Positions 24,631-37,135 of a DNA stretch of 64,000 bases are shown in pieces. Source of the DNA: Candidatus Saccharimonadota bacterium (GTDB taxonomy: Bacteria > Patescibacteriota > Saccharimonadia > Saccharimonadales > Saccharimonadaceae); the NCBI GenBank assembly GCA_017432305.1, contig JAFRJK010000001.1, positions 62,001-126,000 on the forward strand, written 5' to 3'. Position 1 is the first letter of the stretch. Each line of letters starts with the position of its first letter. The position numbers were made by a program, and so were the translations under genes. The notes beneath the pieces were generated by a model. It was not told the origin of the DNA. It saw only the letters and a program-made list of their open reading frames with translations, and did not search any database.

Positions 24631-24837
24631 TTGGATTTTTGGAGGGGTGGGAGATATCATCGCTCAAGTGGTAGTGTTGCAGCTCGCCTTTCGGCCTACC
24701 ACTCCTGGGAACGACTCTCTGCTAGTACCGACATTAGCCGATATCTAAATGTTGATCTCTTTGAGGCTACTGGCTACGTTGGGACAGAATACACTACCAG
24801 TCGAGGGCATGGGATGTTTATCCGTTGCACAACGGAT
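24631..24837 (+). other. Silent FISUMP C-terminal cassette B1
   Basis: Type I head L-D-F-W-R-G-G-R-Y, end M-F-I-R-C-T-T-D. It follows the rarA stop directly and has no divergent partner. Confidence 0.87.
24820..24837. repeat. 18-bp palindrome with one mismatch, B1/B2 junction
   Basis: ATCCGTTGCACAACGGAT. Reads I-R-C-T-T-D on plus and I-R-C-A-T-D on minus. Confidence 0.9.
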
Positions 24838-33534: not shown

Positions 33535-33609
33535 TAGGGCGTCGCCAAGTGGTAAGGCAGTGGGTTCTGGTCCCACCATTCGGGGGTTCGAATCCCTCCG
33601 CCCTAGCCA
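33535..33609 (+). tRNA. tRNA-Gln (CTG anticodon)
   Basis: Acceptor TAGGGCG/CGCCCTA, anticodon stem GTGGG/CCCAC with loop TTCTGGT (anticodon CTG), T-arm GGGGG-TTCGAAT-CCCTC, discriminator G, encoded CCA. Confidence 0.93.
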
Positions 33610-33795: not shown

Positions 33796-36591
33796 TTATT
33801 TCATCACACATCTCGCCGACAAGCCGTTCGTCTCAAGCCCGCCGAATTTCGGATCAATGCTACCCTTATTAAACATCATTGCATAACTCTTGTTTGTCAC
33901 ATTCGAATGAGTCGAAGTCCAAAGATACGTAATCGACCCTCGTTCTTTAACCACTATATTATTTGAATCGAACCACCCACCAAGCACAATCGACGCAGCA
34001 TTTCGCATATTCGACACATTTCGCCCATACGCATTAAAGAGTATATCTGTCTCGCCATTTTCACCACCAGTCGGAAGCCTCCATCCTGCCGGACAGATAT
34101 CATATTCAGCATCTTGTGGTGATTCATATTCACAAACCGTCCCCGCCGTAATTGCACAATAGTTGTAGTAAGTCCCAGTCGTCTTACTCCCACCAGTCCC
34201 ATAAGACGTCGGCTGGTCGTTTTTATTATCCGTATTTATCATTGGTCTTCCATATTCTCGTCTAATCTCACTCGATTCCGGGAGCGTAAAGTTAGATCCT
34301 TCCGGCATATTTGTATTTTCTATCGATAACTGTTCCGTTAGGTTTTCATTTGAAATTCTTAAGTTATCAATCATCCAACATCTATTATCCGCAAGACGTT
34401 GGATATAGTATGGCTCCTCATCACGAATATCATAAGCAATCTTTGGCGTCGATGAACAAGATGAGAATTCCATATTCTGAAGATAGAGTTTCGTCGTTCT
34501 AACTTTCGCCGAAGCAGAAAGGCTCGCCTCACTACTAACTACATATAGCGTCGAGTCCTTCGGTCTCGGGATCAACACACCACCGAGTGTTGAATTATAT
34601 CCAACGAATTCATACCCGTCTTCAAGATCAACCATGAGCCGATAAGTCTTCTCCGACACAAGCTTTACTATCGTATTATTTTCCGTAACTTCAAACGACG
34701 CATATTCATCACTTATTAGCGAAACTTTCGAAATTCCATTTGTTACAAACTTAACCGTAACATCAACAAAGCGATACACTTCCCACTGCGCATAAAGCGT
34801 GACAGTTTCACCAGCCCGAGCAAGATCTAGAATTTCACCCTCATCATCAAAGCTCTCGCCACTACCGTCAGCTTCCGTATTCCACCCGATAAATTTATAT
34901 CCTTCGCTCTCTGCGTTCTCGATATTATACGGACTCTTCGGAAGCGTAGTTTTCACACCAACACTCACCCCGAGATCCGGGACTTCCCCATCTGCCATCT
35001 TGTCACTATTCGCATCAAAATGTATCTTGTAATGTTTATTATAGACGCAGCGCATCGTATGCCCATTTATTTTCTTACCGCCGTTTGAATTAAAGTTAAT
35101 CGCCGTTGTTCTCATCCAAAGGTTCAGCGCCCGAGTCTGATCCGATGGGTTCGCAGTATGGTAGTTACCAGTTTCACCAATCGTAATAATCGCATTTTTA
35201 TTAAATTCACCGGAATAAATCAAGTTATTCGGGTATCTACGCCAACGTTCACTCGCCGCAGCCGTAGTTGCATTTTTGCCATTTCCACCAAGCGCAATAT
35301 CGAGTTGCGTCAAATCGCCACTATCTCCATATCCCGTTGGTAGACTCCATCCCGCCGGACAAATATCCCCGAACACCATAAACTTCGAGTTATTCTTCGA
35401 GAAAGTTCCGTTTCCAGCCGTCGCTGTGTACCAGTTATAATAGCCACCATACGAGCTCCAATAACTCTCCGATTCAATATCAATATTACTCGTATTAAAG
35501 TTAATCCGATTAATACAATTTTTCGTAGTATCGGTACAAAATTCGTCTTTCGAGCTTGGATTTCTATTAATCTCCTCAATAAATTCCGGCGTCGGATTAT
35601 TCGTATTTTCGGAAGTTATTGCCGACCCAGATTTCGAGAGATCGAGCCTCAAATTCTCCACCATCCAACAACCTTTATCTGGCAATTTCGCAATCGCATA
35701 AGTATTTCCGTCGCGAGAATCCGTCAAGCCAATCACATCCCCAATCGCCATATTTTCGCAACCATTCCACTCCTGGAGCGTCCCCTCCGATTTCACCCAT
35801 TTCGCATAGAGTGTCATCCCGTTATTTATAATTTTTTCCGTCTCAATCGCCTCATTCGGTCCATAGCTAATCCCCTCCCCATCCCTTTTTGTGTTCCAGC
35901 CTGCAAATCCATATCCCGACTTCGAATAATCTGGTGCCGTTAAATCAACTTTCGTCGGAGCGTCGTTTTTCGTAAATCCGACCAGCTGTTTTTCTAGCGA
36001 CCCATCCATATCTCCGCCATTTCGGTCATAACAGATATATCCAGCCTCACAAACCGACGGATCCATCGCAATCGCCGTAATTGTGAAGGTATTTTCATAG
36101 GTTCCCGCCGGAACCGACCTGTCAACTTTCGCCCCAAAAGTCAACTCGTGTTCGTTCGGTTCGTCTATCGACGGGCTATAATTTTCCGCAATCACGACAC
36201 CATCCCCACCAGTTTCCGGAACTGGCCTAAAGTTTATCCCGTCCATACTGAATCCATACGAATTATCGAGCGAATTTAGCGGAATGTCCACGCGCCCAGC
36301 CGGAAGCGTTAAGTTCGAAATCTTCTGGCTATTATCTTCCTTATTCACTAAATCTGTCGACTCGCCACTCGTCTCCATCTTAAGAAGATAACCGTTTGCG
36401 TTATCCGTAATAATCGAAATCGGAAACTTTGCCGTACTTGCATTTCCTGGCATCATATTCCAATTTACTGACTGGCTAATCGTCATCGAAAGACTTGCTT
36501 CATCTCCGGCATAAACACAAGGGCACAAAAAGACCAACTGGGCAAAAAGCGCAGCCAAAAACAAAACCCATTTATAGGATTTTACACGCAA
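33796..36591 (-). CDS. Large secreted surface protein with two FISUMP domains and InlB-type repeats
   Basis: A 931-residue protein. The signal peptide covers residues 1-28 (hydrophobic run ending C-V-Y-A-G). A beta-rich region follows to about 175. InlB B-repeat-like units occur near 180-265 (G-Y-G-F-A-G-W-N-T...L-Y-A-K-W) and 525-605 (G-W-N-T-E...L-Y-A-Q-W). FISUMP domains lie near 270-520 and 700-931, with D-x-R-D-x-x-x-Y-x-I, C-W-M-(I/V)-x-N-L, I-C-P-A-G-W and a final R-C-V. The C-terminal part of each FISUMP domain aligns with the silent cassettes, but the DNA lacks the TTTTTGGAGGGGTGG head. The frame starts at TTG 36591; a better ATG with AGGAGG upstream is out of frame by one base. Confidence 0.88.
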   Translation of the reverse strand: MRVKSYKWVLFLAALFAQLVFLCPCVYAGDEASLSMTISQSVNWNMMPGNASTAKFPISIITDNANGYLLKMETSGESTDLVNKEDNSQKISNLTLPAGRVDIPLNSLDNSYGFSMDGINFRPVPETGGDGVVIAENYSPSIDEPNEHELTFGAKVDRSVPAGTYENTFTITAIAMDPSVCEAGYICYDRNGGDMDGSLEKQLVGFTKNDAPTKVDLTAPDYSKSGYGFAGWNTKRDGEGISYGPNEAIETEKIINNGMTLYAKWVKSEGTLQEWNGCENMAIGDVIGLTDSRDGNTYAIAKLPDKGCWMVENLRLDLSKSGSAITSENTNNPTPEFIEEINRNPSSKDEFCTDTTKNCINRINFNTSNIDIESESYWSSYGGYYNWYTATAGNGTFSKNNSKFMVFGDICPAGWSLPTGYGDSGDLTQLDIALGGNGKNATTAAASERWRRYPNNLIYSGEFNKNAIITIGETGNYHTANPSDQTRALNLWMRTTAINFNSNGGKKINGHTMRCVYNKHYKIHFDANSDKMADGEVPDLGVSVGVKTTLPKSPYNIENAESEGYKFIGWNTEADGSGESFDDEGEILDLARAGETVTLYAQWEVYRFVDVTVKFVTNGISKVSLISDEYASFEVTENNTIVKLVSEKTYRLMVDLEDGYEFVGYNSTLGGVLIPRPKDSTLYVVSSEASLSASAKVRTTKLYLQNMEFSSCSSTPKIAYDIRDEEPYYIQRLADNRCWMIDNLRISNENLTEQLSIENTNMPEGSNFTLPESSEIRREYGRPMINTDNKNDQPTSYGTGGSKTTGTYYNYCAITAGTVCEYESPQDAEYDICPAGWRLPTGGENGETDILFNAYGRNVSNMRNAASIVLGGWFDSNNIVVKERGSITYLWTSTHSNVTNKSYAMMFNKGSIDPKFGGLETNGLSARCVMK

Positions 36592-36623
36592 GAGGACCCC
36601 CAGCCCCTCATCTTTGACCTCCT
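36582..36623 (-). promoter_or_regulatory. Shine-Dalgarno and ATG out of frame with the FISUMP gene; G5 tract between
   Basis: On the minus strand GGAGG is followed after 6 bases by ATG (36609-36611), which opens only nine codons (M-R-G-W-G-S-S-C-V-stop). The large gene's frame starts at TTG 20 bases downstream. One extra G in the run of five (36597-36601) would put this ATG in frame with the signal peptide. A TATAAT lies upstream at about 36642-36647 on the complement. Confidence 0.65.
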
Positions 36624-36700
36624 TTTTGTTTTACTCTTTAATTATATCATAAAAGCATAAAGATTTTAGCCCTTTTTCCTCTTATTTTTATCTTTTTTGC

Positions 36701-36712: not shown

Positions 36713-37135
36713 ATGAACCGAAAAAAACTCGGAAAATTCCTTAAAAACTGGTCTCCAGTCATCCTTTTAATGTTCATTATTTTTATTTTCAGCAACTTCG
36801 CCGCGACCGACTCCGACAAACAGTCCGGCTTATTTGTAAATTTAATAAAGACTCTCTTTCCAAACCTCGAAAATGCCAGTTTTCTTATCAATCTCGTTCG
36901 AAAATCCGCTCATTTTCTCGAATACGCTGTTTTTGGCTTTTTTACCGCTCGCGCCTTTAAAAAGTCAGGAAAGAGCCCTCTTTTCGCCATTGACTTTTGT
37001 CTTGCCTACTCGATTACCGACGAACTCCACCAATATTTCGTCCCCGGCCGTAGTATGCAACTCTCTGACATTTTACTCGACACTCTCGGTGCCACTTTCG
37101 GTATTTTTATCTATCATCTCACCCATAAAAAATAA
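36713..37135 (+). CDS. VanZ family membrane protein
   Basis: A 140-residue protein with four hydrophobic segments. The VanZ-like core is present: K-S-A-H-F-L-E-Y-A-V-F-G near residue 64, D-E-L-H-Q-Y-F-V-P-G-R near 103, and D-I-L-L-D-T-L-G-A near 119. VanZ-type proteins sit in the cytoplasmic membrane and affect envelope antibiotic tolerance in some bacteria; the biochemical role is unknown. Confidence 0.9.
   Translation: MNRKKLGKFLKNWSPVILLMFIIFIFSNFAATDSDKQSGLFVNLIKTLFPNLENASFLINLVRKSAHFLEYAVFGFFTARAFKKSGKSPLFAIDFCLAYSITDELHQYFVPGRSMQLSDILLDTLGATFGIFIYHLTHKK

Follow-up and report, generated by a model that had tools for sequence, protein, structure and literature searches.

A putative nine-codon leader ORF overlapping the TTG start of a FISUMP surface-protein gene in a Saccharimonadaceae bacterium

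Where does translation of a large secreted protein begin when the best-looking start codon lies one base out of frame with it? This question is raised by a gene for a 931-residue FISUMP surface protein within the 64,000-nucleotide stretch of DNA analyzed here (the window), which belongs to a genome of 748 kb in 8 contigs. Automatic annotation would label such genes mis-started or frameshifted. The first-pass annotation of this DNA suggested that the arrangement could be phase variation, a recent mutation or a base-calling error. We propose instead, with somewhat better than even confidence, that the out-of-frame ATG at 36611 opens a real nine-codon leader ORF that overlaps the start of the FISUMP gene and is translationally coupled to it.

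Two starts in different frames

The start region is made up of the following elements.

36641-36649, minus strand: extended -10 promoter TGATATAAT, predicted from sequence
36617-36624, minus strand: Shine-Dalgarno (SD) sequence AAGGAGGT belonging to the leader ORF, pairing with the anti-SD at -13.0 kcal/mol
36582-36611, minus strand: nine-codon leader ORF, MRGWGSSCV and stop, in the -1 frame, with a 10-nt overlap with the main ORF
36597-36601, minus strand: G5 tract, which probably serves the TTG as its SD at 5 nt spacing
36589-36591, minus strand: TTG, likely start codon of the main ORF from its SD and the signal-peptide length
33796-36591, minus strand: main ORF, a 931-aa secreted protein with a 28-aa signal peptide, Flg_new/List_Bact repeats and FISUMP (Fib_succ_major) regions

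The short upstream ORF has an initiation signal of its own (AAGGAGGT-6-ATG), the gap of 6 nt between GGAGG and the ATG at 36611-36609 being ideal SD spacing. Its codons are ATG AGG GGC TGG GGG TCC TCT TGC GTG TAA. The stop (36584-36582) starts 7 nt past the first base of the TTG, so that stop and downstream start lie only a few bases apart and the two ORFs share the 10 nt TTGCGTGTAA. From ATG 36611 to TTG 36591 the distance is 20 nt, and one extra base between them would therefore join both frames. Our reading of the region thus confirms the earlier description of an ideally placed SD and ATG opening only nine codons, and bears out its remark that an additional G in the G5 tract would fuse this ATG with the 931-aa protein. 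The 21 bp at the FISUMP promoter are identical to those preceding a probably leaderless gene at window 322.

The ATG is very probably used as a start. AGGAGG-N(4-9)-ATG sites occur ten times in the window, and all nine others (9/9) are gene starts, opening genes of at least 116 aa; only 36611 opens a short ORF.

The TTG has initiation signals as well. With the anti-SD taken to be of the common CCUCC type, as for all SD pairing energies here, the G5 tract pairs at -9.6 kcal/mol, which is equalled or bettered by 1.4% of random 18-mers and sits inside the range of the tested relatives with an upstream ORF (uORF; -2.9 to -10.7). It occupies the position of TGGAGG in those relatives and, read as GGGGGT within the leader ORF 5 nt before the TTG, is probably the SD of this start, a point absent from the first-pass annotation. 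The sole other near-start in frame with the main ORF is a CTG at 36603. Signal-peptide lengths, based on cleavage sites assigned by a simple pattern, point the same way: counted from the TTG the window protein has 28 residues, compared with 27-29 in homologs of the uORF class (27.6 +/- 0.6, sd), mostly 28-31 in simple fused relatives, 34-39 in fused double-start homologs with a doubled N-terminus, and 38-39 in L007 and L008. A hypothetical fused form of the window protein would have 36. These lengths favour the TTG as the working start and are compatible with a fused ancestor. The earlier claim that the protein must start at TTG 36591 is thus supported by both the G5 SD and the 28-residue signal peptide.

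Recurrence of the layout in distant homologs

A protein search detected homologs in 173 of the 174 species genomes of the genus, own genome counted. Beyond the window itself, the best full-length homologs reach just 44-45% identity. A scan of the genome_contigs collection returned no close homolog of the surface protein, and the sole named homolog with long coverage, from an uncultured Saccharibacteria MAG, shows 31% identity. We examined the 5' ends of 44 loci, namely the window and 43 same-genus homologs, all distant and with one genome per species. In 17 of the 43, a leader of 8-9 codons in the -1 frame to the main gene begins at an ATG 5-9 nt past the -10 box and encodes peptides such as MRECWRKDL, MRVWRKVP, MRMWSMLR and MKKTEKRE, each followed by a stop. 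In these 17 homologs the leader TGA shares bases with the main start, giving GTGA, ATGA or TTGA; the frequency of this overlap is partly ascertained because it was demanded by the pattern that confirmed 15 of them after selection by eye (L018 and L102 were found otherwise). The equivalent ATG is fused in frame with the protein (MRVWRK...) in 19 homologs, a pair of closely related loci carry an ORF of 6 codons that does not overlap the main gene, and three are plain at the 5' end. In the remaining two, L007 and L008, the frames are fused but no ATG adjoins the -10 box.

In a tree of these loci the uORF form appears at several places, with at least three label changes. The window clusters with L007 and L008 (44-45% identity to it) on long branches, and since these nearest homologs are fused in frame, fusion may already have been the state of their common ancestor with the window. 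No synteny was found between the window locus and either of them. The divergent VanZ-like neighbour of the surface gene (window 36713-37135) is present in just 3 of 30 relatives, own genome counted, so the surface-gene locus is not syntenic.

At the nucleotide level, the window and the 23-nt relatives align as ATG-6 nt-TGG[A/G]GG-(5 or 8 nt)-NTG, with 5 nt in the window and 8 in the relatives; as the spacings differ by 3 nt, the frame relation is preserved between them. L019 appears to be a uORF form that has lost one base (TGTTGG to TGTGG), with TTA in place of the loop TTG, and it is fused in frame. Because it resembles a uORF locus turned fused, the comparison supports the view that the frames at this start site switch over evolutionary time.

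Within the short ORF the uORF relatives carry a TGGAG(G)-like SD, at a distance of about 8 nt from the main start in the clearest examples. Most of these relatives also have a hairpin of 5-9 bp, better than shuffles, with the main start codon in its loop or right beside it; L018 has no start-codon hairpin. The case for the hairpin is made by the stems differing in sequence across clades (GGACC/GGTCC, GCTCC/GGAGC, GGCCC/GGGCC, TTCCC/GGGAA), covariation among the closest seven relatives being weak alone (one two-sided pair, 71/500 shuffles). A leader model of this start-in-loop element (R1) matched 12 of 345 sampled genomes of the order, all in the same genus, and agreed with the window at the promoter only, not in its leader and hairpin features. 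Around the TTG of the window there is no such structure for leader translation to open: no hairpin encloses the start codon (P 0.99 in shuffles), and fold z-scores run from -0.2 to -1.3. Coupling by unfolding would call for a structure of this kind, whereas reinitiation would not. Attenuation of the Trp-leader type was rejected, the W and R codons coinciding with the TGGAGG SD.

Proposed coupling and competing explanations

In the arrangement that we propose, ribosomes would load at the strong SD AAGGAGGT, start at ATG 36611 and translate the leader through the second SD in the G5 tract, terminating at the TAA at 36584-36582 just past the TTG. Terminating or following ribosomes could then initiate at TTG 36591, either by termination-reinitiation or by fresh initiation, as demonstrated for E. 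coli iraD ORF27 (PMC5574718) and argued more generally for short uORFs (PMC12548453). The leader would thereby supply ribosomes to a weak TTG start and determine how much surface protein is made; nothing in the data points to a regulator. Counted against coupling were the missing hairpin, the match to the R1 model at the promoter only, an overlap of 10 rather than 4 nt and the fused state of the nearest homologs.

That last feature is also what lends weight to a different account, in which the protein normally starts at ATG 36611, the one-base difference in the assembly is a real frameshift of the lineage or a consensus error, and translation from the TTG is now weak or absent. The signal peptides of L007 and L008, both of them fused forms, measure 38-39 aa, and the 36 aa of a fused window form would fall inside the 34-39 of the fused double-start homologs. 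However, the leader layout is found again in 17 homologs, so no error is needed to explain the window arrangement, and the TTG has its own SD and yields a signal peptide of typical length (28 aa). The window is moreover tiled by long ORFs and 90% coding, so the assembly bears no sign of systematic indels. Tracts such as G5 are easy for most sequencers. We consider a frameshift or error rather unlikely. It is less probable still that the ATG is barely or never translated and that TTG 36591 works alone with the G5 SD, leaving the nine codons incidental: the SD of the TTG would suffice and its spacing is acceptable, but a stronger SD and a better start codon lie upstream, and all other such SD-ATG sites in the window are gene starts.

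We give very little credence to mechanisms acting on the G tract itself. Programmed -1 frameshifting on TGG GGG TCC could fuse the leader to the main frame, since re-pairing of the GGG codon one base back is feasible and the shift required is indeed -1; a two-codon slippery heptamer and a well-placed stimulatory structure were both not found, though, and slippery runs are absent from relatives that share this frame relation. Equally improbable is slippage at the G5 tract that toggles the protein between two starts. Surface genes are common targets of phase variation and a single base changes the frame here, but five Gs are far under the usual phase-variable lengths (typically 8 or more); in Neisseria, varying homopolymers are mostly of 8 or more, with one C5/C6 case noted (PMC5084427). 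The window has 17 G/C runs of length 5 and two of length 6, with nothing beyond that, which is fewer than shuffled sequence contains; no long G tract was seen at this site in the homologs examined, and the protein would still be made in both states. While the sequence and frames described in the first-pass annotation stand, its interpretation is therefore partly supported at best: the TTG start is upheld and phase variation is not.

Leaderless short ORFs occur in mycobacteria, and the leader ORFs of the relatives likewise begin almost at the predicted transcription start. The phylum is unrelated, however, and the window leader ORF is SD-led rather than leaderless. A parallel to the coupled leader proposed here might be E. 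coli iraD, where ORF27, a leader ORF of 27 codons, together with an SD-sequestering structure and CsrA control, was shown experimentally (PMC5574718). Both loci have a short SD-led upstream ORF whose stop overlaps the start of a gene with its own SD, but the window leader has nine codons, lacks an SD-sequestering structure and has no known regulator. NTGA is the commonest coupling spacing, and it has been proposed that short uORFs merely deliver ribosomes (review, PMC12548453). The 17 homologs have exactly such spacing after an 8-9 codon ORF. They depart from generic NTGA coupling in that the leader ORF begins about 10 nt or less from the -10 box and most of them carry the start codon in a hairpin loop; the window departs from it in its overlap of 10 nt.

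More tentatively, and with less than even confidence, we suggest that in these bacteria, which have small genomes and are probably of Saccharibacteria type, a genus-specific translation module may control large surface proteins. In this module an 8-9 codon ORF near the transcript 5' end would terminate on a hairpin-loop start, species would have switched repeatedly between the coupled and the N-terminally fused form, and the window would represent an SD-led, hairpin-less variant. A real leader ORF would mean that start calls across this surface family have to be corrected, and would provide a simple testable handle on surface-protein tuning in hard-to-culture bacteria.

Neighbouring genes and repeats

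A tRNA gene (33535-33606, plus strand) lies just past the 3' end of the surface gene, and an Rfam search of the window returned nothing but this tRNA. Many genes, among them those at window 322, 26962, 28155, 36713, 50551 and 62354, begin only about 5-8 nt behind a -10 box resembling TGCTATAAT and are probably leaderless.

The genome also contains a 20-bp repeat, TTGGATTTTTGGAGGGGTGG (LDFWRGG), in 111 copies with at most 2 mismatches across its 748 kb; the reversed control gave 0.

15675-48620: span of the TTGGATTTTTGGAGGGGTGG copies in the window, e.g. at 24631, 25067, 31217, 42355, 47093 and 48136

The repeat heads cassettes of about 68 aa that differ in sequence (LDFWRGGNYYNTYGK..., LDFWRGGYYYRAYGG...), many of which sit in intergenic gaps and face each other in pairs, separated by about 400 bp. 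In appearance they resemble silent cassettes of a FISUMP-type domain. Elsewhere in the window's genome (G000:C8), a secreted FISUMP-like gene at L140:9291-10856 leads into LDFWRGG..., with 64 bases of contig left past the repeat. Surface variation based on cassettes could have its expression site here, and heterogeneity may have broken the assembly at this point.
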